Source: a virus. Taken from it: DNA of 47,592 bases. The translations under genes and the position numbers were made by a program. Location: the IMG/VR virus record IMGVR_UViG_3300033153_001849, positions 1 to 47,592 of that record; one strand, 5' to 3'. The notes below the pieces were generated by a model. That model searched no databases. It was not told where the DNA came from and saw only the letters and a program-made list of their open reading frames with translations. Of this stretch, positions 993-47,592 are shown piece by piece. How positions within the stretch are numbered: position 1 is the stretch's first letter; each line of letters opens with the position of its first letter.

Positions 993-1397
993 CTAGGCGA
1001 CTGCCGTGATGGACAGGAACCTGAGCTTCTGCGGTACGAAGGCAGCTGCCCCGAACTCCTCAGACTTGCTCAGGTCGCCCCATGCCAGCTTCGTTGAACC
1101 CTTACGGGTACGAACGACTGTCTGGTCAACGTTCTGCTCAGCGACCACGAGGACTTCGCCACCTTCGGGAATGTCCATCCCTGTTGGGTAGTACAAGTTC
1201 ACTTGGATGGTCTTTGCTTCGTCCAAGAACCCTTCGTACTTGGTCCTCGACTGTCCGTCGACGAGCGTGACCGAGATGTCGATGTTGAACTTGTCGTCCA
1301 TCTCAATCTTGTTGATGGGGGTGCTGACGGGCTTCGCCTGCTGTGCTGCTTCGGCTGCCGTAGGGGGCAGTGCCGTAGGTCGTGTCTTCGTACTCAT
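993..1397 (-). CDS. Hypothetical protein (134 aa) with its own leader element
   Basis: This gene encodes 134 aa: an Ala/Pro/Thr-rich N-terminus (residues 1-30), then a likely beta-rich domain with alternating hydrophobic residues (IDISVTL, IQVNLYY, VLVVAE, LRFLSITAV). I start at the ATG at 1,397 because a strong GGAGG lies 8 nt upstream inside a 16-nt hairpin. The gene stands alone: a terminator hairpin (1,496-1,532) precedes its leader and the UUCG hairpin follows it, so it is probably a separate, well-expressed unit. No family is recognised. A small structural or DNA-binding beta protein would fit, but this is a guess. Confidence 0.75.
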   Translation of the reverse strand: MSTKTRPTALPPTAAEAAQQAKPVSTPINKIEMDDKFNIDISVTLVDGQSRTKYEGFLDEAKTIQVNLYYPTGMDIPEGGEVLVVAEQNVDQTVVRTRKGSTKLAWGDLSKSEEFGAAAFVPQKLRFLSITAVA

Positions 1398-1401
1398 CTT
1401 C

Positions 1402-1439
1402 GATACCTCCAAGTATCCGTGTGGGAGCGAACTTGCTCC
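1402..1439 (-). promoter_or_regulatory. Leader element: inverted repeat plus SD-loop hairpin (copy 1)
   Basis: Read on the minus strand, GGAGC-AAGTTC-GCTCC (1,439-1,424) is followed after 6 nt by GATAC-TTGGAG-GTATC (1,417-1,402), a perfect 5-bp stem whose loop carries the first part of the Shine-Dalgarno GGAGG. The ATG starts 4 nt later. The same 16-mer occurs at 2,871-2,886, and a variant with a compensated base pair at 9,485-9,500. The layout resembles the start-associated sequences of cluster K mycobacteriophages. Confidence 0.7.
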
Positions 1440-2672: not shown

Positions 2673-2864
2673 CTAGTTCTTTACGAACTCGATGATTGTC
2701 ACGGTGTCTGTAGCGGTGAACTGGTAGACGAGTCCGTCTTGTGCTGTGATGAACACGTCGCCCGTACGGGGGTGTTCACGCTTCTTGGCTACCACGATTG
2801 GGTAACTGGCGAAGATAGAAATCTCGTCGCCCCTCTTCACGAGCTTTGCTAGTAGTCGAGTCAT
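2673..2864 (-). CDS. Small basic protein (63 aa), first gene of left operon
   Basis: This gene encodes 63 aa: a basic N-terminal helix (MTRLLAKLVKRGDEI) followed by a compact beta-rich segment (VVAKKREHP, DVFITAQDGLVYQF). The ATG at 2,864 is preferred over upstream codons because GGAGG sits 10 nt upstream in a hairpin loop of the conserved leader. It is the first gene of the leftward operon reading away from the divergent control region and is thus likely to be expressed early. No family is recognised; its size and pattern would fit an SH3-like small regulator. Confidence 0.65.
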   Translation of the reverse strand: MTRLLAKLVKRGDEISIFASYPIVVAKKREHPRTGDVFITAQDGLVYQFTATDTVTIIEFVKN

Positions 2865-2870
2865 GTCTGC

Positions 2871-2908
2871 GATACCTCCAAGTATCTGCGGCACGGTTTG
2901 TTCCGTGC
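2871..2908 (-). promoter_or_regulatory. Leader element: inverted repeat plus SD-loop hairpin (copy 2)
   Basis: Read on the minus strand, GCACGG-AACAAA-CCGTGC (2,908-2,891, perfect 6-bp stem) is followed after 4 nt by GATAC-TTGGAG-GTATC (2,886-2,871), with the SD core GGAGG at the loop and stem edge. The ATG lies 6 nt further on. The second hairpin is identical to that at 1,402-1,417, whereas the upstream stem has unrelated sequence, so stem structure but not sequence is kept. Confidence 0.7.
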
Positions 2909-5530: not shown

Positions 5531-6132
5531 TGGAACAACTGAGCAGGACGGGCATCATCGATGAGGTGAAGGCTATCCGTCACGATGATGTGGTGACGTC
5601 CCTTCAGGCCACGATCAGGTTCGATACGGGTATGCGTGACAGCTACCAGTACTCGAGGGCGAGTGCGATACAGGTCGATCGCCTGATCGTGACGTTCCCG
5701 GTGTTGACGGGTATCAACCCGGGTGATCTGGTGAACTTCGACATGACGATCCAGTCACCGACGGCACAGCGGTTCATGCCTGCGTTGGAAGCTGGTGTCG
5801 TTGAGGACGATGATGTTGCGTACATCGTGACAGCTGATGAGGTGACGTATCCGTTGTACGAGATGGGCAAGCAGTGTGTTGACTGGCATGACTACAAGGC
5901 ATCTACTGATGATGACGATGACGATGAGCGGTACTCGACAGCTGAGTTCGTGAGTGATCTCGAGGACAGCAAGAATCCTCGTTGTGTCACGGTGCAGTGG
6001 GAAGAGGACGGCAACAAGGAAACGGTGCTGTGCAACAACACCGGTGTGTATTGCGATAACTGGGCGACGAAGATCGTGGATGGCAAGCCCTATTGCCGGC
6101 TCCACACAGCAGCAGAGAGTAAGGACGAATAG
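5530..6132 (+). CDS. Hypothetical protein (200 aa) with Asp run and C-terminal Cys site
   Basis: This gene encodes 200 aa. Residues 1-115 look beta-rich; residues about 127-132 are a run of six Asp. The C-terminal 50 residues contain CNNTG, CDNW and CRLH, a probable C3H zinc site like those of the 84-aa and 58-aa proteins, suggesting a shared mobile zinc module. The start is coupled to the previous gene (TGATGG) with GGAGGA just upstream. No enzymatic motif is recognised. It lies next to the ParB-like gene, so a nucleic-acid role is plausible but not shown. Confidence 0.7.
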   Translation: MEQLSRTGIIDEVKAIRHDDVVTSLQATIRFDTGMRDSYQYSRASAIQVDRLIVTFPVLTGINPGDLVNFDMTIQSPTAQRFMPALEAGVVEDDDVAYIVTADEVTYPLYEMGKQCVDWHDYKASTDDDDDDERYSTAEFVSDLEDSKNPRCVTVQWEEDGNKETVLCNNTGVYCDNWATKIVDGKPYCRLHTAAESKDE

Positions 6133-6134
6133 CC

Positions 6135-7475
6135 ATGTTGACTATCAACCTTGACGACATCATCAGTCAGAGCAATGTAAGGGTGGAGGTGGGGGACGTT
6201 ACGTCCCTCGCCGCCAGCATCGAGAAGGTTGGCATGTTGCAGCCACCACGGGTCGTGGTACCTGATGACGGATTGGATCCAACGTATGTGTTGGTGGCTG
6301 GTCATCGTCGTGTTGCAGCAGCCAAGCTGCTCGAGTGGGAGACGATCGATGTTGTGCTTGATGACGGCAGCCTCATCGCTACTGCTGCTGATGTGTTGGC
6401 TGCACAGTGGGCTGAGAACACTGAGCGTAAGGATCTGTCTGCCTTCGAGCAGATAGAGGTGGCGTGGGATCTCAAGCTTGAGGGTCTGAAGCAGGCTGAT
6501 GTCGCTGCCATCATGGGTTTGGACAAGTCTGTCGTGTCGAAGATGCACAAGACACACAAGGCACTCACGTCGGATGACCTGGATGCCACCAGAGCCACAC
6601 AGTTGAGCGCACAGGCACTGTTCGAACTGGCAGAGGACGTTCTACCCGAGCACATCCCTGATGTGATACGCCTCATCGTGGACGGTGAAGCGAACACGGT
6701 GTGGTCTGCCCAACGCAAGGTTGAACAGGAGTACGAGGCCATCGAGTTCATGGAGTCGATCGCTGAGGAGCAGAAGTCGTGGCATGAGATGGGTGTCAAT
6801 GTCGTGACCGAGATCCCAACGTTGACGGGTGAAACGAAAGAAGAGTACGGGTCGGTACGTCCGCAGCATGACCGCAAGAACCGCAAGGAATTGCGTGACC
6901 TTGGGTTCAGCGTGGAGGAGCACATCAACGAGCCGTGCCATGTCATCTACATCAAGGCTGACGGTGGGTACTCATCGGTCACACACTGGTGTGTCCAGAC
7001 AGACAGGCACCGGGCTGTGACCAAGGCCAAGGGTGAACCGTTGGGTGAGGTGTCACCGAAGATGAAGGCTGATGCCGAGCGCAAGGTCGAGGACTCGGCT
7101 GAACGTAAGGAACGTCGTGACTCCAAGAAGCTGCGCTTCCAACAGGCTGCACAGTGGATGGGGCAGCGCACCAAGGCTGCTGACCGTGAACTGTGGGCTC
7201 TCGACCGTGCCCTTGACGGATGGAAGTCTGAACACACGAAGGCTGCGTTGATCATGCTTGACCTGTTGGGTACCCGTCCGAAGGGTGCCGAGTACTCCTG
7301 GTACGACACCACGTTCGACACGTGGATGGTCGACACGTTCAAGGGCGACAGCTTGGCAGCCTCGAGGTGGCAGGTCAGGTTCCTGATTGCGTTCGGGTTC
7401 ATCGAGCAGCGGTACGGACACGACGGCCAGTTCGACGACGACCTGGCAGACATCGAGATCAAGGAGGATGGATGA
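6135..7475 (+). CDS. ParB-like DNA-binding protein (446 aa)
   Basis: Residues about 1-100 form a ParB/Sulfiredoxin-type N-terminal domain: SLAASIEKVGMLQPP, then GHRRVAAAKL (box with GxRR at 56-59) and AENTERKDLSAFEQ at 93-106. A helix-turn-helix follows (LKQADVAAIMGLDKSVVSK, about 118-136). This matches the CTP-binding/HTH part of ParB. The remaining 300 residues have a Lys/Glu/Arg-rich helical stretch (about 310-345) and a C-terminal region I do not recognise. In phages such proteins act in plasmid partition, as transcription regulators or as nucleases. With no parA nearby, partition is unlikely. The start ATG has AAGGA 8 nt upstream; the stop overlaps the clamp start (ATGA). Confidence 0.8.
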   Translation: MLTINLDDIISQSNVRVEVGDVTSLAASIEKVGMLQPPRVVVPDDGLDPTYVLVAGHRRVAAAKLLEWETIDVVLDDGSLIATAADVLAAQWAENTERKDLSAFEQIEVAWDLKLEGLKQADVAAIMGLDKSVVSKMHKTHKALTSDDLDATRATQLSAQALFELAEDVLPEHIPDVIRLIVDGEANTVWSAQRKVEQEYEAIEFMESIAEEQKSWHEMGVNVVTEIPTLTGETKEEYGSVRPQHDRKNRKELRDLGFSVEEHINEPCHVIYIKADGGYSSVTHWCVQTDRHRAVTKAKGEPLGEVSPKMKADAERKVEDSAERKERRDSKKLRFQQAAQWMGQRTKAADRELWALDRALDGWKSEHTKAALIMLDLLGTRPKGAEYSWYDTTFDTWMVDTFKGDSLAASRWQVRFLIAFGFIEQRYGHDGQFDDDLADIEIKEDG

Positions 7476-8191
7476 GTTTCACACTCACAAAGAACAACGC
7501 ACTCAGGTTGGCACAGATAGGGACAGTGGCAGTCAACGATGACAGACGGGAGGTGCTGCAACATGTGCGTCTCGAGTTCAGAACCGATGGTGTCCTCGTT
7601 GCTACCGCCACCGACTCGTACAGGTTGGCGGTGATGACGTTCATCGTTGACACGTTCGATGCTGATGCCCCTGGAGTTGACCTATTAGTGCCTGCCAAGG
7701 AGTTCGGTGATGCCATCAAAGGGGTCTTGAAACTGATGCCCAAAGAGGACAAGGACAAGAACGTCATCTTGCTGCCGTTCACTGAGTATCACCATCAAGT
7801 ACGTGTCTTCGGTGGCACCCTCGACGGACCAGTTGCAACAGTGGTCGATCGAACAGGAGCAGCGAAGTTCCCGAACGTAGCTCAACTGTTCGATGGACAG
7901 ACAATGGATGGCATCGACAGATTCAACACGACAGAGATGCGGGTCGTAGGTGAGGGCACCGTGTTGCCAACGTTCGATGGTGGCTACATGGCTGACATGG
8001 ACAAGCTCCACGGCACCACTCAGGTGTTGAAGAGAGGCATGTCCCCATGGCAGATGTCATGGATACCCAAGACCAGTGACTTCCCTCATAATGCAGGGTT
8101 CCAGCCGTGGGTGTGGGCATCCAAGGACAAGGAAGAAACGATGGGGATCTGTTACATGCAGATGCCGGTCAACCCGAACAGGAGGAACTGA
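7472..8191 (+). CDS. dnaN-like: Short beta sliding-clamp homologue (239 aa)
   Basis: The segment VLVATATDSYRLAVM (residues 41-55) is the bacterial beta-clamp signature (compare VATDGHRLA in E. coli). DLLVPAKEFGDAIK (70-83) matches the conserved strand and helix that follow it, and the C-terminal ICYMQMPV fits the end of a clamp domain (yvvMPMRL-like). Bacterial beta is about 366 aa with three domains per monomer. This protein is 239 aa, enough for two, the size of T4 gp45 or PCNA, which work as trimers. A clamp encircles DNA and tethers polymerase. No phage polymerase is visible, so it may recruit the host replicative polymerase. Its start overlaps the ParB-like stop (ATGA). Confidence 0.75.
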   Translation: MSFTLTKNNALRLAQIGTVAVNDDRREVLQHVRLEFRTDGVLVATATDSYRLAVMTFIVDTFDADAPGVDLLVPAKEFGDAIKGVLKLMPKEDKDKNVILLPFTEYHHQVRVFGGTLDGPVATVVDRTGAAKFPNVAQLFDGQTMDGIDRFNTTEMRVVGEGTVLPTFDGGYMADMDKLHGTTQVLKRGMSPWQMSWIPKTSDFPHNAGFQPWVWASKDKEETMGICYMQMPVNPNRRN

Positions 8192-9192
8192 TGAGTGATG
8201 CACCGATCATGACCGACACCAACGCTGTGTACTCGATACAACAGCTGCTCAGTGGTGTCGAGTGGGACAGCGAGATGTTGGAGACAGTGGCACAGTTCAT
8301 ACGTCTCACTGGACGTGATGTCCTGGACCCTGACGACCCGAAGGTGAGGCACGTTGCAATGGATCCGGTTGACATGACACAGCCCAAGGTGGATGTTCCC
8401 GTTCAAAACAGGCAGTGGATACATGACAACCAGATCTCTGCGGTTGCCTTCGACCATGGCTACAAACACGGGTTGATCTCGGGTGACAACTACAAGACTG
8501 GTTGGAACGAAGGGCTCAAGCATGGGCTGGCGCAGTGCAACCACCATCCCGAAGCGATGACAATACCTGACTTTGACGATGCTCTTACGACAGCGATTGG
8601 TAAAGCGTTCGAGGAAGGTAAAGCTGTCGGTCAAGCTGACTGCAATGGATTGAAGTCCACCCGTATCAGTGACCTCGAGCGGCACGTCACTCGTCTCGAG
8701 TTCGTTGGCAAGCAGCAAGAGGTTCGTGTTGCTGACCTTGTCCGATTGAACGGCAACCAGTCGGAGATCATCGACCAGGGTACGTTCGATGAGGGCAACG
8801 AGGCTGGGTACGCCGACGGGTTGGCGCAAGGTCGAAGAGAGATGGCACTTCAGTTGCAAGGCAACAAGGAAGACTATGCCGACGGGTTGGCAGCAGGCTT
8901 GCAAAGAGGTGAAAAGACAGCGCATCAGAAGTACGACGAAGGACATACTGTTGGACACAAGACAGGCTTCGAGGAGGGCCGCAAGTACGGGCTCCAAGAC
9001 TGGATGATGCACTTCATCCTGTACCTGCAGGAGAACGACCAGGACTTCGCAGTGGTGAAGCTCAGCCAGCTCAACGAGATGCGTGAAGCAACGCTGAAGA
9101 TCCGACAGATCGTGGACTTCAGTGAAGACCTTGACCCGATGCTCGAAGAGATCGAGACGGTACTCACCAGATTGGAGACGATCGACAGGTGA
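8191..9192 (+). CDS. Glycine-periodic (GX3-repeat) protein (333 aa)
   Basis: This gene encodes 333 aa with long runs of Gly every fourth residue. These fall near residues 90-115 (DHGYKHGLISGDNYKTG), 142-150 and 210-272 (YADGLAQGRREM, YADGLAAGLQRGEKT, HTVGHKTGFEEGRKYG), the pattern called deca-GX3 in Yae1-type proteins and seen in FliH. Such periodicity makes tightly packed helix pairs. A coiled-coil-like stretch (about 155-190) and a helical C-terminus flank it. Start ATG at 8,191 overlaps the clamp stop (TGATGA). Function is unknown; a long helical scaffold linking clamp-associated proteins would fit the position but is inference. Confidence 0.7.
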   Translation: MSDAPIMTDTNAVYSIQQLLSGVEWDSEMLETVAQFIRLTGRDVLDPDDPKVRHVAMDPVDMTQPKVDVPVQNRQWIHDNQISAVAFDHGYKHGLISGDNYKTGWNEGLKHGLAQCNHHPEAMTIPDFDDALTTAIGKAFEEGKAVGQADCNGLKSTRISDLERHVTRLEFVGKQQEVRVADLVRLNGNQSEIIDQGTFDEGNEAGYADGLAQGRREMALQLQGNKEDYADGLAAGLQRGEKTAHQKYDEGHTVGHKTGFEEGRKYGLQDWMMHFILYLQENDQDFAVVKLSQLNEMREATLKIRQIVDFSEDLDPMLEEIETVLTRLETIDR

Positions 9193-9452: not shown

Positions 9453-9455
9453 GCG

Positions 9456-9500
9456 TAGCACAGGTTTGCGTGCTATGATGAGTAGGTACTTGGAGGTACC
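9456..9500 (+). promoter_or_regulatory. Leader element: inverted repeat plus SD-loop hairpin (copy 3), with extended -10
   Basis: TAGCAC-AGGTTTGC-GTGCTA (9,456-9,475) is followed by GGTAC-TTGGAG-GTACC (9,485-9,500), two bases before the ATG at 9,503. Compared with the minus-strand copies (GATAC...GTATC), the second pair changes from A-T to G-C on both sides, a compensatory change that argues for an RNA or DNA stem. TGCTATGAT (9,471-9,479) reads as an extended -10 box overlapping the first repeat's right arm, so the repeat could also be an operator over a promoter. Confidence 0.65.
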
Positions 9501-9502
9501 CG

Positions 9503-9949
9503 ATGGCTAAGACAACTGTTGATGAACAGGTTCGTGGACTCTTGGATCTTGCGATGAGGCTCATGCCTGAAGGTGAAGGCATCGACCTTACCGACAAGGA
9601 CTATGAGACAGAGGACCTGGTTGCTTTGAAGAACCGGGTGTCCACTATCCGTAGTGCATGTGACGTGGTGAACCATGCCCTTGCACGGGTATGGAAGAAC
9701 GACCACCTTGGTGAGAGGTACGTCGATGAGTTCAACACGTACTACCTGGACAAGACACGAGGTAAGAAGGCGATCGATAGGAAAGCGTTCTACGAGTGGC
9801 TTGCCACCAAGGATGCTGCTGAACTGTCGACCCTTGTTGCTGACTACAACATCAAGACAGGGGGTATGACGTCCGCTGAACGTGCGACGTTCCTTGATGA
9901 ATCCCCCACCACTGATCGGTTCACGATCAAATCAACGCTACGTAAGTAG
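9503..9949 (+). CDS. Hypothetical helical protein (148 aa)
   Basis: This gene encodes 148 aa, predicted helical and highly charged. Features are an acidic loop (GIDLTDKDYETED, residues 26-38), a long helix through residues 40-70, and a YVDEFNTYYLDKTRGKKAIDRKAFYEWL segment (about 73-100) that looks like a conserved core. The start has GGAGG 6 nt upstream inside the leader hairpin. It opens a unit with the OB-fold-like gene that follows 17 nt later, so a role in DNA replication or recombination is plausible. The family is not recognised with certainty. Confidence 0.7.
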   Translation: MAKTTVDEQVRGLLDLAMRLMPEGEGIDLTDKDYETEDLVALKNRVSTIRSACDVVNHALARVWKNDHLGERYVDEFNTYYLDKTRGKKAIDRKAFYEWLATKDAAELSTLVADYNIKTGGMTSAERATFLDESPTTDRFTIKSTLRK

Positions 9950-10447: not shown

Positions 10448-10515
10448 GGGGGTCGGCTCAATCGATAAGCAGTCGGCTGATAACACACCGACCCCCGTGA
10501 GTCCTTAAGGAGGAC
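10448..10515 (+). promoter_or_regulatory. Long-loop inverted repeat followed by SD hairpin
   Basis: GGGGGTCGG (10,448-10,456) pairs perfectly with CCGACCCCC (10,488-10,496) around a 31-nt loop. GTCCT-TAAGG-AGGAC (10,501-10,515) follows at once, a 5-bp stem that contains the SD AAGGAGG, with the ATG 5 nt later. The order (large inverted repeat, then SD-bearing hairpin, then start) repeats the architecture of the three conserved leaders with unrelated sequence. The first stem may also end the upstream transcript. Confidence 0.6.
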
Positions 10516-11887: not shown

Positions 11888-11938
11888 AGAGAACCCACCG
11901 ATCCGTGATGGATGGTGGGTTCTCTACTTGGAGGTGCC
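11888..11938 (+). promoter_or_regulatory. Long hairpin followed by CTTGGAGGTGCC core
   Basis: AGAGAACCCACC (11,888-11,899) pairs perfectly with GGTGGGTTCTCT (11,914-11,925), and ATCC/GGAT can extend the stem inside. It runs straight into ACTTGGAGGTGCC, one base different from the SD core used at 9,489 and 10,945. The next annotated ATG is 37 nt away and has its own SD. A 13-codon GTG ORF (11,934-11,975) overlaps the SD core and ends as TGATG on the primase-fragment start, so a leader peptide is conceivable. Confidence 0.55.
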
Positions 11939-30195: not shown

Positions 30196-33100
30196 TCATC
30201 CCTCCGGTATCAGTAACGCATCAACCGACACGATAAACGGATTCTCAATATCGTACCCTGCCATCAACGGTGTCACGATGTAATCGACGAACCATTTCGT
30301 CTGCAACTGCAGTTCATGGTCATCGATACGTTCGATAAGAGCCTGTAGCCGTGACGTGAACTCCGACCGTAACGCCGTCGTTGTCTGATCTGTTGTGGCC
30401 GTACCTGAGTACCACCACGACGCTTCGTGACCCATGTTGATCGAATGCTGCTCGTTCTCTGCCCACCATGTGGTGATACGTTCAAGGTTCTTCGTCAACT
30501 CAGGGTTGATCTCCATTCCCAATTCGTACTGTGGCGTACCGAACGTGCCGGTCAGCCTCATCTCGTCAAGGATCATCTTGTAGCTTGGACGTTTTGGGAT
30601 ACCAGCAGGGCCACCGACACCGGCATATCCGAAGTACATGGCTTCGATGTTGCGCTTTGCAGTGTTGTACCACGGGTCGAGGATCTGTTCCACGTAGTCC
30701 TTGTAGATGTGGGAGTCCTTGCCGTACCTACGTTCCATATCAAGCAACGATGCTGCCCTGTCCTCCTGAACAATGGCGAACCTGTGACGGCCTTGATTGT
30801 ATGAGATGATCTCCATCGACTGTCGAGGTGTCAGCTTCGCAATGATCCCATCAGATAGTTGATCGTCATATTCGGGTTGATAGAACTGGCCACCGACCAC
30901 TGGCGGAATGAACGCTGCTTGGGTGTATGGCAACAGCGTTGCAGCATCGGGATACTTTTGAGAGAACTCATATGACGTCTTGTCCAACGGCTTCGATGTG
31001 ATCCGGTACGACTTACGGGCAACAGCCAACGGGTCTTCCCCGTACCAGGTGCGTACTGTCTCGAGAGCTTCCTCAGGTCCGAGGTACTCGATGAGGAACG
31101 CATAGTCGTTCGCTATCGACGTCGGTTTGAGGAGCACCTCACCCTTGGAGCCCATGTGTACAGCCTCAATGTCGAGGGCAGGTTGTGCCGGTAGTACAGC
31201 AGACGTGATCGATTCCATGAACCCGTACTGTGCCGCATACGACTGTGCCTTGTTCAACGCTTCGTTCAGCAATCCCATGTCGGTACCGATGTCGGCGTAC
31301 TTCGGGTCAGATGCCATCAAAGCGTTCAGATAGTCGATCTGCAATGAAGCGAAACGAACGTCGTAATCGCCACGATCTGCCCACGCCAAGAAGTTCCTTG
31401 CATAGGCAGGGAACATGAACTGTTCGAACCCGTCACTGAGATCAGACGGTGAGAACCCACCATAGATAGCAGTATTCAGGACGTTCATCAGGGCAGGGTT
31501 GTCGTCGATCAGTGGACGTACCGCTGCTGCTCCGAACTGCATGACAGGGCCAGTACCTGGACCCAATACTGACCGTGTGTCAGCGAAGTTGATGAACCCG
31601 ATATTGCCGACAACGAGTGAGTCCTGTGCTACGACACCTTCAGGCATGTCTGAGGTCAGTGAAGCAAGCATGGCGGGACCGGGGAAGAACGAGAATACAC
31701 GTTCGCCGTATTCGTTCTCGTCGAACCATCCTGAGTTCTGTCCCATCGTGTTCACCTGTTGCATACGGCGCAGGTTTCGGAATGGCTTACCGAACTCCTT
31801 TGTCTTGACGGGGTTCATGAGTTTCCCCCAACGGGTGAGCAGTTCCCACCATGCGTCACCGAATGGGAAGATCAGCTTCAAAGCGTCAGCCCAGTTACCA
31901 CGCTTCGACAGGTCGAAGAACAGGTCACGGGTGTCCTTCACTGCGGTAGCGACCATGATCTCTTCGATCTCGTCAAGCCCTAACTGCACAGCTGCTGGCC
32001 GTGACGGAAGTTCCGTCATGCCCTTGATACGCATCTGTTGCTTCACGAACCTGTCGAACTGGTTGCCGGTCATACCTGATTCGATAGCTGCTTCACGTAA
32101 TGCTGTACGAATATCCACTGTTGCATGGAGGTAGAAGTCGGCTGCTACCTCCCATGCCCTCACCTTCGAGTACGGGTTCCTGACCAACACCTCAGACGGC
32201 TTCTGCCCGATCATCATGAACAGATCAGTGATGAGCTGGTTCGCAGCGTTCATCCCCTCGAGGTCATCTCGTAGCCCTGGTGCCTTGACCTTGTGGGGTA
32301 CAGGGTTGTCCTGCGTGTACGCCTCTGTGCGGAAGAACTTGACGAGTTCGTCGATCTCTTCAGGTGTCATTTCCTCATGGATGAGGATGTGTTCGTTCTT
32401 TTCCATTTGGGTACGTCGCAGGTCGGTGAGTACTTCGAACTCGTCGATACCGGTACGGGCGAACTCTCGTTGGAGGGCACGATAGATCTCACCGAACGCT
32501 GCATCGCCCAGACCTTCAGCGTCTCTGATGTCATCGATGCCGTACTTGTCGAGAAGGGCTTGCATCGTACGTGACGGCTTCTGGTTGCCACGGACGATAC
32601 GTTCCAGATCGAAGTTGACCATCTGTTCGCCCTGATCCATGTAGTTCTTCTGGATCTTGATGAGGTCTTCAGGGTCAAGGGTTCTCGAGTCGAGGATGAG
32701 GAGTCCTTGATAGCCGTCAACCGTTTCGTCACCAAGTTTGACATCGATCGCTGAACGTAGGAACTCCACAGTGTCGGGCTTGTTCATGTGCCGTCGAACA
32801 ACGACGTACACCTGTTCAGATACAGGGATTTGTCGTCTTGTTCCAAGCTGTTGGATGACACGACGGGTCGCTGATCGTTGCTGTGTGTACAGGTCAGCTT
32901 CGGGACGGTCGATACGTCCGTTGCCCAGGACGTTCAGGAGGTCAGAGTCACCGTTCTTGATGATGACATAGTTATCTTCCCTCGCCACCTTGTTCACGTC
33001 AGGGATGTTGTCCATCTCCATGAGGCGTGCCTTCAGGTCTTCCATGGTGACCTTCTGCCCATCACGGGAGTACAGGTTTCCAGCTTCCGGGTCACGAAGT

Positions 33101-36100
33101 TTGATCTCTTCGATCATCAACCGCTTCGACCACGGCAACGGCTGCCCGTTCACTCCCGTATGGGGTGACATGCCGGTGTACGTTTCGACAGCGTTGCCTG
33201 CAGAGTCGATCCATTCAGGGACACCATCGACCTCACCGAAGTCAGGGTTCCGTTTGATCCAATCGCCACCAGTCAACAGGTGCCTCTGTGCTTCGAGAGC
33301 TTCGAGGTTGATGCGTAAGAGACGGAACTGCTCCCACGGGTCTTCTGTGTCACGGAGGATACCGAGGCGTTGCTTATCGCCTGGTACAGCGCCTGTGCCT
33401 TTGCCGAACATCAGCCCTTCAAGTGGTGAATTGCGGTCGTTGAGTAGGAACTCGGTTGCCCGATTGATGTCACCATCGAACTCCCACAATGTCTTCAACA
33501 GTGAAGAGTTCCACGATTGGGCATAGTTACGTGCCAACGCCTGGGCACCCTCGAGCGTGATGTTGCCGTTCGCATCGGTCGTGTCGATCGCTATCCATAT
33601 CTTCGACTGTGGACCGAAGGCACCCTCGAGGGCAAGTTCGTCGGTGAGGCCGGCGCCGAACATGCCGATACCGAGTCCACCCATAGCCTTCGACAGTTCA
33701 CTGAGCAGTTCACCTGACGGCAACTTGTCACCCGTGTTCTGCAACACCAGATTCAGGAGGAACATCGGGTTCTTTGCAGCAGCAGAGTGCCCCTCGAAGA
33801 ACGGACGTAACAGTTCATCAGGGATCACCGATGTCATCCATCCGAGCTTCAACAGCTGCATGTTGCGCCACATCGAGAACCCGATATCGGCCATTACCTG
33901 TGCAGCAGCATCATCGAACAGGACAGGGGACGCCTTCCACCTGTTACGTACGTACCGTCCACGAGAGGTGGCTCTACGGAACTCACGCACTGACGGTGCA
34001 TGGATATACGACATCGAGATCTCAGCATCAGACAACGGTTGGTCGATACCGAGACGGAACTTACGACCCGAAGCCGTGTTACGTATCTCGAATACTGTGT
34101 CCGCTTCAGCGATCGGGTTACCCACCGAATCGATGTTGAACGCAGTCTTCGTACTCATCGTCTTGTAGTACTCCTCCATGGCGTCGATAACTTCATCAAC
34201 GGAGTAGCCACGTTTCACAAGAGCTTTCTCGTACTCACCCATCAACGCACCAGTGAGCTTCGATGTTGCCTTGTAATCGTTGCGTGCATTCCACGCTTGA
34301 CGCAAGATCTCATCGACACGCATCGGGTCGGTGCCTATCGTCTCGAGGTTGCTGATGATCGTCTCAGAGGTAGCGTTGAAATCCCATGGGTCGAACCGTG
34401 ACGCAGCAGACGTCGCCATCCAACGACGGCCAAAGTCACCGATCCACCGTTTCGCTTTCGGCATCGTTGTAGCAGCAACCATGCGACTGTTCGACGCCAT
34501 CTGTGTCGCCTGAGCACGAACACTTGAGTACCCCGGAGGGGACAGTTGCTGTGTCAGGCGCTGATTGTTCACCCAAGCTCGCACGCTGTCATGGGATGAG
34601 TCGCCCTGCTTAACTTGGTCGAGCATCTGGTATATGTCGTCATACGGGACACCGTTGTCATGCAGCTTCTCGATCTTGATGGATTCAGGAACGGCCATGT
34701 CGTCGAGCCACGCAACGAACTTCTTGCCCTTACCGGCCAACCATTCCTCAGCAGACGGTACGTTGTAATCGCCACCACGACTACGTACAACAGGAGGCTT
34801 ACCCCCTCCACCGCTGCCACCACCCATTGCAGTATGGGCAGCGTCGAGCTGTTCGACACCACCGGGGAACACGTACCCCTCATGCAACATCCGTTCAGCG
34901 TCCTCGATACTCATCGTGTTATGTACCGGGATGTCGGTGGAACCGATTGTGGCAGGGTCGATATTGCCACCGAGTTGTGCTTCCACGATGGCACGTTGAT
35001 CTGGTGACAAAGTACGCATCTCTGACCGTGCAAGGTCAGCTGCACGATTGGCGTCGTTGCGTCGTATCACCGCTCGATCCAACTCATCGATCGATATCGG
35101 GTTGACATACGCTTCGAGTGCTTCGTCAGGGGTCAGTGGACGAGTACGGGGGGATGCGTCAGCGATCGGTGTCTGTGTTCTGTAGATGTCGCCCTGGATC
35201 CGTTCGACCTGTAGGCGTGCATCGTCGAGGGTCAGGTTCCGTCCTTCATCAGGTACCGGTACAGCCGCTCCTGCCTGATAGTCCTCATCGAGTTGTCGTG
35301 ATTGGCGTTCCATCATCGTTGCTTGGTCTTCGAGAGAGTCGAACATCTGTCCAACGTCATCGAGCTCTATCGCTGTTTCTTCAGTGACGAGGACGAGCTC
35401 TTCCATCTCGTTCTTGATGCGGTTGCTCTTGGCTGCTGTTTTGGTGCCGTCGAGTTGTTTCTGGAGTGCGAAGAACTTGTTCCTCGCTGCAACACCACTG
35501 GCCTGTACCTGTTCCATGTAGAGACGGAGCGCACTACGCAATGCTTCAACACCCTGGACAGTGTTCGGGAGCGGCATCGTTGGGATATGAACCCATCGTT
35601 CAGCGATCGATATCAGTTCCTCATCGAGGTCATCCAGTTCCGTGTTGGCAGCAGACAGATTGTCCTTCACTGTCTCCTTCTCGGGGCCACGCAACCCTTC
35701 ATCGAGGAGTTCCTGATATGCGGCTTGGTCTTCGATGAGTTCGTCACGACGGGTCGCTGCATGGTTGAGGGTGTCCTCGGTTTGTGTCTGTACCTCAGTC
35801 TCGTATCGACTCAACTCGCTGGCGTCACGCTGTTGGCGTGCAAGCACATCCTCATGGGCACCCAAAGCATCGTTGTATCCCTCCATGAACTCAGGGTTAT
35901 CGATCAGTTCGGGATTGTCCTTGAGGGTTTCTTCCCACTGGTCAACGATCTGTTGACCGAATGTTCTTCCCGGTTCTTCGGCACCACTTCGTATCGCTTC
36001 ACCAACAGGGTCAGCCGTTTCAGCCGAGGTCATACCCCCTGGCTTCTGAAGGTCTATTTCCTCGATGACCTTCTGGTTCTGGGCGATCTCCGTTTCGAGT

Positions 36101-39100
36101 TCTTTGATAGTGCTTTGAGCAGCAAGCTTCTGACCGTCAGACATGTCGTCAAGAGTTGCGTAGATGGTGAACATGCGGTCCCTCAACTCACCGACCTTCT
36201 TTTCTGCGTCTTCCCATTGCACCTGAATAACGAGGTCTTCCATGTCTTGGTTCAGCCGTTCAAGACCTACCCCGGTTGATTGTTCGATACCTGACCTGAC
36301 ACCAGCGTTCATGTCAGCATTGAACGCTGCAAGTTCTTCTGCAACGCCAGCAGGAGGATCAGGTAACGTATGAGGAACGTCGAAGCCGTATGCGAAAGCT
36401 TGTTCAACGGGATACTCGCCCGTGATCCAATATGTAGCAAGCAGGGACGCTTCATTGACATTTCCGTCAACAAGGGGTTTGGCTTCATCGATGAGTTTTT
36501 TCTGTAAGCCTATGAATTCGACGCTGTTCGCTAGTCGGTTACCCGTTTCCTGAGGTGTTTGGATGATGTCATCAGGGGTGATCGTTTCGTTGAACTTGGC
36601 AGGGTCGTCGTACCCTATCTGAACTTTCATCGGGTCGTTCGTCTTCGATATCTCAGTGATGTTGCCGGGAGGAATATCACCATAGATAACAGCACCCCAA
36701 CGGTCAGTGATGAGGCCACGAAACACGCCACCTTCAGACTTCCGTGCAGGCACCTCAGGTGGTACGAGGATGTCTTTCTTACGAACACGGATTCGGATGA
36801 CGGTGTACTCACCGGTCTGATTGGGATCCCATCCGTACATCTCGGTAACACGGGGGTCAGACGAAACGTATAAACCTTCACCCACCTGACCCTTTTCTGA
36901 TCGGATCTGGTCACCGACAGCAACAGGCTTGTCCTTACCCCTGATCCCCTCATCAACATACGCTCCCGTACTTTCACTACGAGACGTCCGATACACATCA
37001 ACCCATTCGTCAGCACCAATAGCATCGAACTCTTTAGAAGTTATCCCTACCAGAGAGCGACCTGTCGGTGGAGCAACAGGCATCGGGGTAGCACCCGGGC
37101 CTGACACGATCGGACCTTCGTCCCATGCATACCGAAGTTCCTCAAGAGCGTCCTTCGTTTGTTGCAGGAATACTTCAGATGAAGGAAAGCCATACCCTTT
37201 TTTCCCTGCAGGTTTCGCAGGATGAGGGTTGTTGGCGTAATGGTTGATCATCGCTTCAAGCTGATCGACCCGTTTGTCGTACTCGAACCTGTTGATCGGA
37301 CGACCATCAAGGACACGAACAGAATCCTCTGTACGTGCCTGTACCGGTCCTTCCACTGCTCCACGGCCGGCAGCCTGCTCGGGGTCAGTGAGGCGAAGCT
37401 GGCCCGGTACCTGCCTGTTGTCACGGAGGTGACGTTCCTGTATAGCGGTCGGATAGTTATCGATGAACTCTTCCAACTCATCGATGAACGACTGACGGTT
37501 CTTCAACATGTCAGGGCCACCCTTGCTGTCAAGCAAGCCGAGCCCTTCGACACGAACATCCATTCGTAAGTTTCGCAATACAGCCTTGGCGTCCTTCAAA
37601 CTGTTGAACGCCACATCGGTCGACTTCATCCTGTCGATGAAGTTCCGGTACCGCATCCACACCTTGTTGAAATCACGAACCGATAGCTTCCCAAACGTTT
37701 CCGTAGGACGACCAACCGGAGGACGGTCACCCCACAGCTCTATCTCCTCAGCGTTCCGGGTAGCGATCTCGTCAGGTGTCGCACCAGATATCGACGTCTC
37801 GTCAACGAAGTCGTTGTAAGCAGGGTCGTAGTCCTCACCTGTGATCTTCCACGTTTCATCGGTCAACGACTCGTACTCGAACTTGAGGTAGTTGTACTCA
37901 GACAACAGCTTGTTGTCGAGGACACCAGCAGCTGTCCGTTCCGCAATGAGACGATCCATACGTTCGAGACGCATCGTCAAATCATCGAGCTTCGACGCTG
38001 CCATCGTCACTGGTGCGAACGGTTCTGGTGGTGTCTCGTCAACGAACGGACGGGGAGGCTGCTTCTTGCCCTCAGGTACCAGGTCAGGGCGTGCCACCAG
38101 TTCAGGAATGGGTTGCTGTACCTCGAGGACACCCTGCCCCTCAACCTGATTGAGATGCTGCTTATCACGGAAGTTGAGTTCTACCTCAGCTTCACGATAC
38201 GAGTCAAGGAAGAACTCACCGTCGAACAGTTCGTCTTCGACGTATCGCAGTTCACTGCTGTAGTCAGCCACTGCCTTGTTCGTGGCGTCAGGGCCGAGCT
38301 TGTCTCTCAGCTCCTGTGACTTCTTGCGGAGCCAGTTGAGCCGGTTCTCGAGGTGGCTCATGTCCTTGATGTTCTTGTCGTCCATCCATTCTTTGAGGTC
38401 GTCAACAGCTTTGTTGACATCCTCTATCGGCTTGTCCTTGAACTGGACAGACGGATCTACCTTCTCTGGTGGTGGTGCGAACACAGGGTCGTCACGTAGC
38501 GCAGCGGACGATACAGGACGTTCAGGGATGTACGGATATGCAGAATCTGTTGGGTCGCCGTATCGGTGCAACGGGTCAGCCATGTCAGCGAAGTCGTCGT
38601 ACGTTGAAGGTGGGCCTGCCTTGAAAGTTTCTTGCACTGCAGCGTCAACCTCTATGAACTTGTTCGCACGTTCCTCACCGATCAGTTCAACGATGATCTC
38701 GTATTCATCTGACCGGTAATCGATACCATCGATGGAGATCGCTTCTTTCATGTCACGGGCTTCTGCAGCTGACTGCATCTGATTGCCCTCTAGCTCTATG
38801 AAAGCGTCTTCTAGCTTCACCCATTCATCGTCAGTGAGTTCGACACCATCGAACCGGAGGTCATACACCTCATCTACGAACCCGCCCTTGAACGGCGTAT
38901 CTGTCGCACGACGGACACGCTCCTCTTCGATACGAAGCAACTCGATCAGGTTGTCAGCGTTCCCCGGTGCGTCAGGGTTCTCATCGACAACCCTGCTCAA
39001 ACGACGCCACTCTCTGTGTAGGTCGACAGACCGTGTTTCGGTGAGGTCTTCAGGGAACTCGATCACCTTCGGAGGACGTGACGTGACAGCTTCGTCAGGT

Positions 39101-40770
39101 TCCACCGGAGCACCGAACGTCCGGTCGTTCACGTCTAGCTTCGAATCAAGGACGTCACGCAGTTCCTGTTCGATGGAATGAAGTTGAGCTTGGACAGCAG
39201 GGTCGTTCGGGTTGTACCTATTGGCAGACATCACATCGTCGTACCGAGTGGACAGATCTTGGATAGCGCCTACACGTTGCTCCATGTTCCTGAGACGAAC
39301 AGCTTGCTCTACACGCTGTTCGCTACGGTCAACGCCCACCAGCTTCCACCGTTCAGGGTTCGTGATGTACTCCTGCCATTCAGCGAGCTGTTGAGCGTAT
39401 TCGGGTGACTCATCACTGAGTTCATCGATGAGTGTCTGGTACGCCAGTTCAGCGTCGTCGGCCTCGATCTCAGAGTTGAAGATGTTGTCCACGACAGAAT
39501 CGATCTGTTCGTTGACCTCGATGTCTCCACCTGATGCATACCTCTCGGCGGTACCAACCTCGTAGAGACGTTCCTGAAGTGCCTGCGGGAGGTGTCGACG
39601 GTCGAGGATGTGAACGACACCGGTACCAGGTTCCAACAGTTCTTGCGCTTTGGCGTCTTCGATGGCTTGGATGAAGTTGTCAGTGACAGCACCAGACGAC
39701 AGACCTTCGGCTCCGTCTGCGACAGGTCCGTTGCCAGAGAACACATATCCTGATACGTTGTTCTGCCCTGGTTTCGTGCCGATAGCGTTCGATACCTGTG
39801 GGCCTGTGTTGATCGGGACACCACCATGGGCAACAGCTGCTTGGGCAGCATCTTGTATCCCATCCGGTTTCACGAACTTATGGATAGCCCATGCACGGGT
39901 CATCGAGTTGAACACAGGATCCAACGGGTCGAGGAACACCTGATGGGTGAAGTCGATGCCACCAGAGATGATGTTCGCTGGTACAGACTTGGGTTGGATG
40001 AGCCCAACCATCGCCAACGGTGTGTACAACAGACGCCCTGTCGACACGCCATACCCGTAATCGACACCATCGAACGTCTGATGGAGCTGTGTGATGGCAG
40101 CAGATTCATATGCTTCGTTCACAACAGGGGCACCATGTTTATCGATCGCCCACTGGTAGCTCTCCTCGAGAGCTTCCTCGATGGTGGCTCCTTCAGCCAA
40201 CAGGTTCTCGAAGTGCTTACCGACGCCCGGCGATTGCATCAACGATTCAGAGTTGCCTGCCATCAAACCGTAGCCAAGGCCTTTCCCCGACCATGCCTGA
40301 TACGGATCCATCGTACCTTGTGCCAGGTTCGAAGCTGTACGCCCAACGATCGTTTGACCTGCTGCACGCAACGATTCAGCAGGGTCGAACGTGCCGTACC
40401 TGTCGTACTGCTGCACCATGTCGGTAGCGGTACGCAACGGAATACCGACCATCGTTTCCCACACGTCGTAGAAGCCTGCTGTCAGTGGACGGGTGACAGG
40501 GCCGGCGATGGTTGTCCACCCTCGAGCCATGAACGACTGTTCTTGATAGTCCTGCCGAATGATGCTGGCAAGGTTCGGATTCTGAGGGTCGATGCCAGCC
40601 ATCGTGAATGCTGACAGCATGTCGGGAGACATATTTGGGTATTCCCTGACAGCCCCTGCGATCTGACTGGATGCAGGGTTACCTTTTATCTGATTCCTGA
40701 TTCCCGTGACAAGGCTTAACGCATCAACACTTCGCTGCAACTGGATCGATTCATCATCTGGTGGCGGCAT
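30196..40770 (-). CDS. Giant virion protein (3,524 aa)
   Basis: One uninterrupted reading frame of 10.6 kb, 22% of the genome. Near residues 1,250-1,385 a segment (WVDVYRTSR, then VGEGLYVSSDPRVTEMYG, then TVIRIRVRKKDILV) resembles an ADP-ribosyltransferase fold. Long coiled-coil-like stretches occupy about 1,560-1,790. Residues 2,960-2,990 hold LIFPFGDAWWELLTRWGKLM, a Pro-Phe/aromatic motif I associate with large internal virion proteins. I find no T7-type RNA polymerase motifs, so it is not an obvious N4-like virion polymerase. Placement between portal and scaffold with M23 and membrane-helix proteins suggests a multi-domain ejected protein. Start ATG has GAGGA 5 nt upstream. Confidence 0.7.
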   Translation of the reverse strand: MPPPDDESIQLQRSVDALSLVTGIRNQIKGNPASSQIAGAVREYPNMSPDMLSAFTMAGIDPQNPNLASIIRQDYQEQSFMARGWTTIAGPVTRPLTAGFYDVWETMVGIPLRTATDMVQQYDRYGTFDPAESLRAAGQTIVGRTASNLAQGTMDPYQAWSGKGLGYGLMAGNSESLMQSPGVGKHFENLLAEGATIEEALEESYQWAIDKHGAPVVNEAYESAAITQLHQTFDGVDYGYGVSTGRLLYTPLAMVGLIQPKSVPANIISGGIDFTHQVFLDPLDPVFNSMTRAWAIHKFVKPDGIQDAAQAAVAHGGVPINTGPQVSNAIGTKPGQNNVSGYVFSGNGPVADGAEGLSSGAVTDNFIQAIEDAKAQELLEPGTGVVHILDRRHLPQALQERLYEVGTAERYASGGDIEVNEQIDSVVDNIFNSEIEADDAELAYQTLIDELSDESPEYAQQLAEWQEYITNPERWKLVGVDRSEQRVEQAVRLRNMEQRVGAIQDLSTRYDDVMSANRYNPNDPAVQAQLHSIEQELRDVLDSKLDVNDRTFGAPVEPDEAVTSRPPKVIEFPEDLTETRSVDLHREWRRLSRVVDENPDAPGNADNLIELLRIEEERVRRATDTPFKGGFVDEVYDLRFDGVELTDDEWVKLEDAFIELEGNQMQSAAEARDMKEAISIDGIDYRSDEYEIIVELIGEERANKFIEVDAAVQETFKAGPPSTYDDFADMADPLHRYGDPTDSAYPYIPERPVSSAALRDDPVFAPPPEKVDPSVQFKDKPIEDVNKAVDDLKEWMDDKNIKDMSHLENRLNWLRKKSQELRDKLGPDATNKAVADYSSELRYVEDELFDGEFFLDSYREAEVELNFRDKQHLNQVEGQGVLEVQQPIPELVARPDLVPEGKKQPPRPFVDETPPEPFAPVTMAASKLDDLTMRLERMDRLIAERTAAGVLDNKLLSEYNYLKFEYESLTDETWKITGEDYDPAYNDFVDETSISGATPDEIATRNAEEIELWGDRPPVGRPTETFGKLSVRDFNKVWMRYRNFIDRMKSTDVAFNSLKDAKAVLRNLRMDVRVEGLGLLDSKGGPDMLKNRQSFIDELEEFIDNYPTAIQERHLRDNRQVPGQLRLTDPEQAAGRGAVEGPVQARTEDSVRVLDGRPINRFEYDKRVDQLEAMINHYANNPHPAKPAGKKGYGFPSSEVFLQQTKDALEELRYAWDEGPIVSGPGATPMPVAPPTGRSLVGITSKEFDAIGADEWVDVYRTSRSESTGAYVDEGIRGKDKPVAVGDQIRSEKGQVGEGLYVSSDPRVTEMYGWDPNQTGEYTVIRIRVRKKDILVPPEVPARKSEGGVFRGLITDRWGAVIYGDIPPGNITEISKTNDPMKVQIGYDDPAKFNETITPDDIIQTPQETGNRLANSVEFIGLQKKLIDEAKPLVDGNVNEASLLATYWITGEYPVEQAFAYGFDVPHTLPDPPAGVAEELAAFNADMNAGVRSGIEQSTGVGLERLNQDMEDLVIQVQWEDAEKKVGELRDRMFTIYATLDDMSDGQKLAAQSTIKELETEIAQNQKVIEEIDLQKPGGMTSAETADPVGEAIRSGAEEPGRTFGQQIVDQWEETLKDNPELIDNPEFMEGYNDALGAHEDVLARQQRDASELSRYETEVQTQTEDTLNHAATRRDELIEDQAAYQELLDEGLRGPEKETVKDNLSAANTELDDLDEELISIAERWVHIPTMPLPNTVQGVEALRSALRLYMEQVQASGVAARNKFFALQKQLDGTKTAAKSNRIKNEMEELVLVTEETAIELDDVGQMFDSLEDQATMMERQSRQLDEDYQAGAAVPVPDEGRNLTLDDARLQVERIQGDIYRTQTPIADASPRTRPLTPDEALEAYVNPISIDELDRAVIRRNDANRAADLARSEMRTLSPDQRAIVEAQLGGNIDPATIGSTDIPVHNTMSIEDAERMLHEGYVFPGGVEQLDAAHTAMGGGSGGGGKPPVVRSRGGDYNVPSAEEWLAGKGKKFVAWLDDMAVPESIKIEKLHDNGVPYDDIYQMLDQVKQGDSSHDSVRAWVNNQRLTQQLSPPGYSSVRAQATQMASNSRMVAATTMPKAKRWIGDFGRRWMATSAASRFDPWDFNATSETIISNLETIGTDPMRVDEILRQAWNARNDYKATSKLTGALMGEYEKALVKRGYSVDEVIDAMEEYYKTMSTKTAFNIDSVGNPIAEADTVFEIRNTASGRKFRLGIDQPLSDAEISMSYIHAPSVREFRRATSRGRYVRNRWKASPVLFDDAAAQVMADIGFSMWRNMQLLKLGWMTSVIPDELLRPFFEGHSAAAKNPMFLLNLVLQNTGDKLPSGELLSELSKAMGGLGIGMFGAGLTDELALEGAFGPQSKIWIAIDTTDANGNITLEGAQALARNYAQSWNSSLLKTLWEFDGDINRATEFLLNDRNSPLEGLMFGKGTGAVPGDKQRLGILRDTEDPWEQFRLLRINLEALEAQRHLLTGGDWIKRNPDFGEVDGVPEWIDSAGNAVETYTGMSPHTGVNGQPLPWSKRLMIEEIKLRDPEAGNLYSRDGQKVTMEDLKARLMEMDNIPDVNKVAREDNYVIIKNGDSDLLNVLGNGRIDRPEADLYTQQRSATRRVIQQLGTRRQIPVSEQVYVVVRRHMNKPDTVEFLRSAIDVKLGDETVDGYQGLLILDSRTLDPEDLIKIQKNYMDQGEQMVNFDLERIVRGNQKPSRTMQALLDKYGIDDIRDAEGLGDAAFGEIYRALQREFARTGIDEFEVLTDLRRTQMEKNEHILIHEEMTPEEIDELVKFFRTEAYTQDNPVPHKVKAPGLRDDLEGMNAANQLITDLFMMIGQKPSEVLVRNPYSKVRAWEVAADFYLHATVDIRTALREAAIESGMTGNQFDRFVKQQMRIKGMTELPSRPAAVQLGLDEIEEIMVATAVKDTRDLFFDLSKRGNWADALKLIFPFGDAWWELLTRWGKLMNPVKTKEFGKPFRNLRRMQQVNTMGQNSGWFDENEYGERVFSFFPGPAMLASLTSDMPEGVVAQDSLVVGNIGFINFADTRSVLGPGTGPVMQFGAAAVRPLIDDNPALMNVLNTAIYGGFSPSDLSDGFEQFMFPAYARNFLAWADRGDYDVRFASLQIDYLNALMASDPKYADIGTDMGLLNEALNKAQSYAAQYGFMESITSAVLPAQPALDIEAVHMGSKGEVLLKPTSIANDYAFLIEYLGPEEALETVRTWYGEDPLAVARKSYRITSKPLDKTSYEFSQKYPDAATLLPYTQAAFIPPVVGGQFYQPEYDDQLSDGIIAKLTPRQSMEIISYNQGRHRFAIVQEDRAASLLDMERRYGKDSHIYKDYVEQILDPWYNTAKRNIEAMYFGYAGVGGPAGIPKRPSYKMILDEMRLTGTFGTPQYELGMEINPELTKNLERITTWWAENEQHSINMGHEASWWYSGTATTDQTTTALRSEFTSRLQALIERIDDHELQLQTKWFVDYIVTPLMAGYDIENPFIVSVDALLIPEG

Positions 40771-41907: not shown

Positions 41908-42124
41908 GATGTCTCCTGTTCAGCGCACAGCGCCTTCGCTTGATCTATGAGTGTGTTCTTGTCGAGGGCATCATCAAATGGGATCCCGTTGTTCTTGAAC
42001 CAGTTCTCAACCTTGGTTCTGCCGTGTACAACGGTTCTTCAGGTTTCGTCCCTGGCGGTTTCGGTACCGGCACACCAGAAACATCTTCGTAGACCCCGTG
42101 TACGTTCTTCATCATCAAAGGCAT
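41904..42124 (-). CDS. Small gene split by a frameshift (73 aa if corrected)
   Basis: From ATG 42,124 (AGGAG 6 nt upstream) the frame encodes 37 sensible residues, ending GTKPEEPLYTAEP, then a nonsense-looking tail to 41,945. In the -1 frame the sequence continues as KVENWFKNNGIPFDD ... LCAEQETS and its stop overlaps the next ATG (ATGA), as in all neighbouring genes. So one base is missing near 42,010-42,020 (CCAAGG should perhaps be CCAAAGG), or the ribosome shifts there. The site is not a usual slippery heptamer, so an indel is more likely. Function is unknown; a head-completion role would fit the position. Confidence 0.6.
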
Positions 42125-44018: not shown

Positions 44019-44299
44019 CAGACTGTCTCCCACACGCTGAGATGGAGCTTGTTCGTGATCCGTGTACGGATACACGTCGAGTTCAAGCAATGACCCTCAC
44101 GGGCGTTACAGGTTCGACACAAACCGGTGTTGTGTTGCCACAGGGCAAGGAACACATGTCTGTTCTGGTCGGCATCGAAATCGGGATGTGCGGTGTACGG
44201 CTTCTTGGGGTTCATGAACTTGTTGAGCCATTTCAGTTCCTTGGCGTCAAGGTCAACCTTTTCGATGTAGACGGTTTCTCCGTCGATCATGTGTTCCAT
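44018..44299 (-). CDS. Zinc-binding protein between terminase and portal (93 aa)
   Basis: This gene encodes 93 aa. N-terminal half: beta/helix (ETVYIEKVDLDAKELKWLNKFM). C-terminal half: a compact Cys cluster (LCRTCNAREGHCLNSTC, about residues 59-75), a good four-Cys zinc site. ATG 44,299 overlaps the TerL stop (TGATGG) with GGAGG 6 nt upstream. Its place between terminase and portal suggests a DNA-packaging accessory, such as an HNH-like or small-terminase-like helper, but I see no HNH motif. Confidence 0.6.
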   Translation of the reverse strand: MEHMIDGETVYIEKVDLDAKELKWLNKFMNPKKPYTAHPDFDADQNRHVFLALWQHNTGLCRTCNAREGHCLNSTCIRTRITNKLHLSVWETV

Positions 44300-47222: not shown

Positions 47223-47592
47223 CCTCGAGTGTAGCAGAGAGAGAACACAGAGGGGATCAAACTTCCCAGGACCGACCTGCTAACCGGCCTTCTAACCATC
47301 CCGTCGTAGGGCTTCGCTCCCCACTCACTCCAGATTCAGACGGATCGTCGGTAACTCGGCACCTGGACGACTGCAACACCCCATCAAGCCACAAGGCCAT
47401 GGCGGGATCCCCTGAAAACAGAAAGCGTCGCCGCCCTGCCAGGGCATATCACGTCCAAAACACCCCCAACCCAATAACCACCAAACAGAACAGACCAATA
47501 CCCAACCAAAACGTTACCAAACAAGCTAGAAACACTACGTATATATATACATGTGCCGGATAACGTTTACATACGGGTAGTCAACTTATCGT
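47223..47592. other. Gene-free region with G-poor stretch; includes right repeat copy
   Basis: No ORF here has both a ribosome site and reasonable composition. Between about 47,440 and 47,530 the plus strand is nearly free of G (A and C dominate), so a plus-strand RNA would be C-rich and G-poor, as at Rho-utilisation sites; the minus strand has several GG/GGG runs. The last 55 bases repeat positions 1-55. The region joins 1-447 in the circle, giving about 0.94 kb without genes, a possible place for the origin or packaging start. Confidence 0.6.

Follow-up and report, generated by a model that had tools for sequence, protein, structure and literature searches.

Hairpins with the Shine-Dalgarno sequence in the loop before three phage genes, and their counterparts in other phages

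Why are the Shine-Dalgarno (SD) sequences of three genes in this viral DNA flanked by arms that can pair with each other, an arrangement that puts the GGAG into the loop of a small hairpin immediately 5' of the start? The window, by which we mean the whole stretch of 47,592 bases that was analysed, begins and ends with a 55-bp direct repeat (1-55 and 47538-47592) and thus looks like a complete circular assembly, as it probably is. Its major capsid protein shares ~30-34% identity with the major capsid proteins of Mycobacterium phage Mendokysei, Propionibacterium phage B22 and a Bifidobacterium phage, which makes an actinobacterial host likely. Rightward early genes at 3.5-14.9 kb diverge from leftward genes at 0.7-3.3 kb, and the structural genes run leftward. 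We think it probable that the three elements act in the mRNA, as start-associated hairpins that show the SD GGAG in an apical loop 2-6 nt 5' of the start, usually behind a variable inverted repeat, and that would in this way favour or insulate initiation.

Three hairpins in the window

The three hairpins described in the earlier note, which was made from the letters of the DNA, are all present, each 2-6 nt 5' of an ATG. Copy 1, GGTAC-TTGGAG-GTACC, with GGAGG as its SD, occupies 9485..9500 on the plus strand and is followed 2 nt further by the ATG at 9503. Copies 2 and 3, both GATAC-TTGGAG-GTATC, lie on the minus strand at 1402..1417 (ATG 1397, 4 nt further) and 2871..2886 (ATG 2864, 6 nt further). 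The variable stem pair is likewise as the note had described it: copy 1 has G-C there, the other two copies A-T. The genes that follow encode proteins of 148 residues (9503..9949, plus strand) and 134 residues (993..1397, minus strand), neither with a family match, and of 63 residues (2673..2864, minus strand), with no significant family match. All three elements are in the non-structural, early part of the genome, and are separated from the gene upstream by gaps of 50, about 59 or more, and 147 nt.

Could this be a strong SD and nothing more, three related ribosome-binding sites that arose by duplication or recombination and in which the pairing of the flanks is accidental? Copies 2 and 3 share all 16 bases and are weakly alike further upstream, the three may have been copied from each other and so are not fully independent, and a wider survey of phage SD sites, described below, is weakly positive. 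Within the window only one of the five stem pairs varies, and re-dealing the arms by permutation gives p 0.33; the claim of covariation therefore depends on the sequences of other phages. Against such an origin, the genome contains 3 perfect 5-bp hairpins with an NNGGAG loop where 0.35 are expected (Poisson P = 0.006, with the start-codon position left out of the calculation), and all 3 are at gene starts; moreover, compensated stems of the same design recur in several unrelated phage lineages. We regard chance pairing around copied SD sequences as improbable. For comparison, GGAG occurs 359 times on the two strands of the genome and TTGGAG 26 times. A motif search of the window at 3 mismatches gave 5 matches, against 0.59 in shuffled sequence, and a covariance model built from the three copies matched only those three in the window (E 1.7e-5).

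The inverted repeat that the note had seen upstream of copy 1 is real: TAGCAC-8 nt-GTGCTA, at 9456..9475 on the plus strand, pairs over 6 bp (shuffle p 0.02) and folds as 8 bp over 9454-9477. Copies 2 and 3 have one too, GGAGC-aagttc-GCTCC at 1424..1439 (minus strand, shuffle p 0.15) and GCACGG-aacaaa-CCGTGC at 2891..2908 (minus strand, shuffle p 0.04). The three sequences are unrelated, and each repeat taken singly is modestly unlikely.

The proposal that the hairpins mark the first genes of transcription units fared less well. The gap upstream is ~50 nt or more at all three genes, but there is no promoter match: a promoter scan of the window reported none at the elements, and when SigA-like hexamers were sought, only copy 1 had one, an extended -10-like TGCTATGAT at 9471..9479 (plus strand) without a -35, which the scan did not call. 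Judged from its sequence, and if TGCTATGAT is a promoter, transcription would begin at ~9486, at the base of the copy 1 hairpin. The upstream repeat of copy 1, which TGCTATGAT overlaps, is for that reason perhaps not transcribed.

A further candidate, at 11925, was rejected as a functional SD-loop hairpin. Here, at 11889..11935 on the plus strand, an 11-bp hairpin GAGAACCCACC/GGTGGGTTCTC (fold z -2.7) is directly followed by TACTTGGAGGT; since the right arm is unpaired and the start ATG, at 11975, is too distant, this partial copy is not functional as read.

Pairing of the flanks in other phages

Terminase relatives of the window phage are identical (contigs L107 and L108), 74% identical (L276) or 46-48% identical (L109), the last two being ~5-kb contigs, and none of them spans the motif region. 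The proteins of gene 9503, the ParB-like gene 6135-7475 and gene 8191-9192 found no relative in viral contigs, the product of gene 42132-44090 found none in bacterial genomes, and megablast of the first 20 kb against phages gave no match. The lineages compared here were obtained by searching for the core itself, and the window phage has no close relative among them. Viral contigs were scanned for TACTTGGAGGTA followed by an ATG within 2-9 nt, with the flanks left free, which gave at least 120 stretches; after removal of near-duplicates there were 37 intergenic sites and 39 sites inside ORFs among the matches listed.

At the 37 intergenic viral sites among the matches listed, at least one, two and three extra pairs extend the core in 26, 17 and 8 cases, where permutation within GC quartiles predicts 17.5, 7.9 and 2.4 (p 0.0014, 0 of 5000 permutations, and p 0.0004). 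The pairing depends on register: the successive positions are paired at 26, 19 and 14 of these 37 listed sites, and when the partner is slid by one the number falls to 10-14. Where the core lies inside an upstream ORF (39 viral sites among the matches listed) the counts are 15, 3 and 0 against 11.4, 3.3 and 0.8, with no clear excess. The same scan of bacterial and archaeal genomes gave 16, 6 and 2 of 47 intergenic sites against 12.5, 5.1 and 1.5 expected, with a marginal excess at the 24 bacterial sites inside ORFs (8 against 4.6, p 0.04). Viral intergenic sites among the matches listed and bacterial intergenic sites differ at each threshold (Fisher p 0.002, 0.001 and 0.02). An upstream stem of at least 6 bp is found at 11 of the 37 listed viral intergenic sites, against 2.9 expected. 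The argument that the pairing goes beyond conservation of the SD is thus borne out in other phages, where 17 of the 37 sites among the matches listed have at least two extra pairs against 7.9 expected, and not by the window alone. As far as such comparisons go, base pairing in phages appears to be selected, and not the SD alone.

How general is the arrangement? Among all SD sites in the fetched loci, the search matches excluded, 22 intergenic stems of at least 5 bp were seen against 14.1 expected, and a similar excess inside ORFs points to an effect of composition. The idea that all phage SD sequences sit in hairpins was dropped on this weak and composition-confounded excess; the SD-loop hairpin is lineage-specific and no general phage rule. 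Nor can every match of the first viral scan be counted as an element, most being coding, with pairing limited to the start-proximal ones. When the stem was held constant as GTTAC/GTAAC and the loop left as NNGGAG, the two free bases were TT in 7, AA in 6 and TA in 5 of 29 cases, which rules out a universal TTGGAG loop. A covariance-model search with the three copies, the check that the earlier note had recommended in related genomes, returned at E <0.1 in other phages mostly start-proximal copies that were already known, albeit in phages that are not close relatives. A recurring sequence in bacterial genomes, GGAC-TAC-TTGGAG-GTA-GNYC before an ATG, is fully paired in locus L388 and partially in L296, L339 and L371, and perhaps belongs to the gene of a mobile element.

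Several phage lineages carry 3-9 SD-loop hairpins per genome, with stems that have changed and are still paired. In phage genome G022 (57.5 kb) eight TTGGAG hairpins lie within the first 5.4 kb, on stems GTAC, TTAC, ATTAC and TATTAC in which one pair is G-C or T-A; most sit behind a second hairpin that has itself changed with its pairing kept (TTGGAC-n5-GTCCAA, TTGGAT-n5-ATCCAA). In a marine lineage (G041, G039, G048, G060 and G061) the stems are ATTAC, AATAC, TGACC, AATTC, TGTCC, CATAC, AAGAA and others; at sites preselected for at least 3 pairs, 57 of 60 cells are paired against 31 on permutation, and without this preselection, of 27 leaders defined by pattern, which include some chance matches in coding sequence, 20 have stems of at least 4 bp. 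A third set (G055, G054 and G056) has the stems TGTAGC/GCTACA, TGTTAC/GTAACA and TGTCAC/GTGACA. Some pairs are broken by a change on one side.

These stems bear directly on the question of whether the element is a DNA operator, GRTAC-N6-GTAYC being a palindromic site for a dimeric regulator that spans the SD by coincidence. The palindrome has a 6-bp spacer and its TAC/GTA half-site is constant in the window, the -10-like TGCTATGAT is just upstream of copy 1, and the ESAS elements of cluster K mycobacteriophages combine a SigA-like promoter sequence with an inverted repeat (PMC11373665). In other phages, though, the arms change freely while pairing is kept (TGACC/GGTCA, AATTC/GAATT, AAGAA/TTCTT), which disfavours a DNA operator there, if not in the window taken alone; in every case the mRNA strand has the SD in the loop, and bacterial genes show little or no excess pairing. 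We consider an operator of this kind very doubtful.

Comparison with known elements

The earlier note drew a parallel with the SAS and ESAS elements of cluster K mycobacteriophages (Pope et al. 2011, PMC3203893), while calling the sequence unrelated. To the extent of the published description on which we draw, the likeness in layout holds. Both elements carry the SD a few nucleotides 5' of the start between symmetric arms (GGG...CCC in SAS), both occur in several copies, and both are oriented with non-structural genes that have an upstream gap of ~50 nt or more. SAS lies ~3-9 bp before the start, and the window copies lie 2, 4 and 6 nt before it, with gaps of 50, about 59 or more, and 147 nt that match the SAS gene context. 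An inverted repeat stands upstream of about half of the SAS copies in that description and of all three window copies. The stem and loop differ from SAS, however, and there are 3 copies in the window compared with 11-19 in the SAS phages described there.

Membership, by contrast, fails, both by sequence and by the repeats of ESAS. The 13-bp SAS consensus GGGATAGGAGCCC, defined by several copies with no more than 2 mismatches, has 8 matches in the window even at up to 3 mismatches, against 9.5 by chance, none of them at an element, and the sequences are unrelated as the note had held. ESAS repeats, in the same description, are conserved, imperfect 17-bp inverted repeats with the promoter inside, whereas the repeats at the three window copies are of 5-6 bp and have no sequence in common.

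Is SAS itself an SD-loop hairpin? In the sections of Pope et al. to which we refer, symmetric outer parts of SAS are described and no hairpin is proposed, and RNA pairing of the ESAS repeats is doubted (PMC3203893). SAS too folds in this way, as GGG-ATAGGAG-CCC (-1.9 kcal/mol), and its loop ATAGGAG is also that of phage G055. In some variants the two arms have both changed and still pair: CGG/CCG in Pixie, TGG/CCA in Kratio, and CAG/CTG in Aminay, there inside a longer stem. Six cluster K regions contain 88 consensus SAS sites, a further 15 sites with changes in one arm only and 10 with changes in both, 5 of these last being fully paired. Five fully paired among 25 variants compares with 3.2 on permutation (p 0.19, not significant), so that covariation in SAS is at most suggestive. 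At the Aminay site, near 9139-9171 of locus L401 (Aminay, ~37.1 kb), ATAGGAG lies in the loop of a stem of at least 10 bp, GGCCCCG CAG-ATAGGAG-CTG CGGGGCC, at -21.9 kcal/mol; by prediction the 16S tail would leave this stem closed.

A SAS-like motif, GGGAAAGGACCCC, has also been reported from Microbacterium cluster EF phages (PMC7302621). Compared by description only, it resembles the window element in having the SD inside symmetric arms at starts with an associated sequence upstream; its sequence is unrelated.

CsrA sites prefer A at the first position of the hexaloop (ANGGAN), and CsrA is rare in actinobacteria. Both points matter for a translational operator, in which a phage or host RNA-binding protein (CsrA/RsmA-like, or another repressor or activator) would read the loop and switch the three genes jointly. 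As in CsrA/RsmA targets, a short hairpin that overlaps the SD has a GGA in its apical loop (PMC6686035), and the loop TTGGAG is common to all three window copies and to 8 of 8 early G022 copies. The window loop, UUGGAG, differs from the ANGGAN site with its C-G closing pair, beginning as it does with U instead of the favoured A, and the likely hosts are actinobacterial. Across phages the loop bases are not conserved (TT, AA or TA, and ATAGGAG in the G055 lineage), and the window contains no gene of the CsrA or RegB families. The earlier suggestion that one factor may switch on a set of genes is therefore not supported, and we judge a protein-read operator unlikely, if the least so of the alternatives.

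A further alternative places the function in the message itself: a 5'-proximal hairpin that blocks RNases, or that is cut at GGAG by a phage endoribonuclease, with translation secondary. What speaks for it is that in the marine lineage the SD-loop hairpins stand directly 3' of hammerhead-like ribozyme leaders, and that copy 1 would be at the very 5' end of its mRNA if TGCTATGAT were used. What speaks against it is the lack of a RegB homologue in the window and a placement, 2-6 nt 5' of the start, more exact than stability needs. This too is unlikely, and we would rank the alternatives in about the order protein-controlled operator, stability or processing element, DNA operator.

Hammerhead ribozymes clustered in phage leaders are known (Perreault et al. 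2011, PMC3088659); the marine lineage has a likewise structured element with the SD-loop hairpin in addition. Its contigs (L227:13006-16745, L230:2285-3455, L233:14193-16858, L271 and L272) contain repeated hammerhead-like leaders, in which stems flank CTGANGA ... GAAA; in most of them an SD-loop hairpin and a start codon come ~50-90 nt past the CTGANGA core. One of them, L233 16766-16821, scores 47.5 bits on the hammerhead model RF00008, and most others fall below significance with the Rfam model. RF00008 has no match in the window, where an Rfam search gave nothing relevant, the one hit being to a miRNA model (E 0.38) elsewhere. The eight early leaders of G022 (L224 1-5440) are mostly two- or three-hairpin structures, with fold z down to -4.6 and no Rfam match, and could be a structured RNA family of their own.

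A proposed model for SD display

What might a hairpin around the SD achieve? The isolated hairpins are weak, at -5.7 and -3.7 kcal/mol in the window and -1.5 to -6.2 kcal/mol in the other lineages tested; in the minimum-energy fold of copy 1 (-5.7 kcal/mol) a U.G pair closes the loop and leaves a UGGA tetraloop. The computed pairing of the SD with the 16S tail is worth -9 to -11.6 kcal/mol, and the stems are by comparison weak enough for a 30S subunit to open. Folded in isolation, the leaders of copies 1 and 2 do not exceed shuffled sequence in stability.

On our favoured reading, of an RNA hairpin that displays the SD, the weak stem, at about -4 to -6 kcal/mol, would keep the SD out of longer-range structure in the mRNA and present it to the 16S tail, whose pairing, worth about -10.6 kcal/mol, would then melt the stem. 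Initiation could thereby become robust and independent of neighbouring sequence. The genes so served would be those with a leader of their own, uncoupled from the gene directly upstream, and the 5' end may be protected or defined by the hairpin upstream, a role that would fall to a self-cleaving ribozyme in some marine phages. The hairpin would then be an expression device of the phage, and no switch run by one dedicated factor.

If the class is defined by a stem of at least 5 bp, an SD in the loop, an ATG within ~10 nt and paired stem changes, the window elements belong to it, with one changed pair within the window. In the open PubMed Central papers covered by our searches we found SD-loop hairpins nowhere described as a class of phage element. 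More tentatively, and with less confidence than in display of the SD as such, we suggest that such hairpins could form a class of translation element that phages have evolved convergently and that ordinary bacterial genes lack, often in company with a second hairpin or a self-cleaving ribozyme upstream. Cluster K SAS would be a sequence-specific instance of this class, and initiation might be favoured in this way during infection, for example with altered host ribosomes or S1. The function of SAS elements has been described as ill-defined since 2011, and to see them and the window element as SD-displaying hairpins gives a concrete model, in which pairing counts more than the sequence of the arms. 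If true, it would improve the annotation of phage start sites and provide a compact natural leader, of upstream structure and SD hairpin, that could be studied as an insulating translation element. A further question is why the arrangement is found in phage genes and not in bacterial genes with the same core.

Some minor features of the genome may be added. At 10501-10515 on the plus strand, GTCCT-TAAGG-AGGAC before the ATG at 10521 has part of the SD inside the stem, where it could be masked instead of displayed. The otherwise identical contig L108 has 97 extra bases (5568-5664) relative to window positions 42025-42026. Finally, the ORF at 30196-40770 on the minus strand, of 3,524 residues, is unusually long for a 47.6-kb phage and may, by its position only, encode a tape measure protein.
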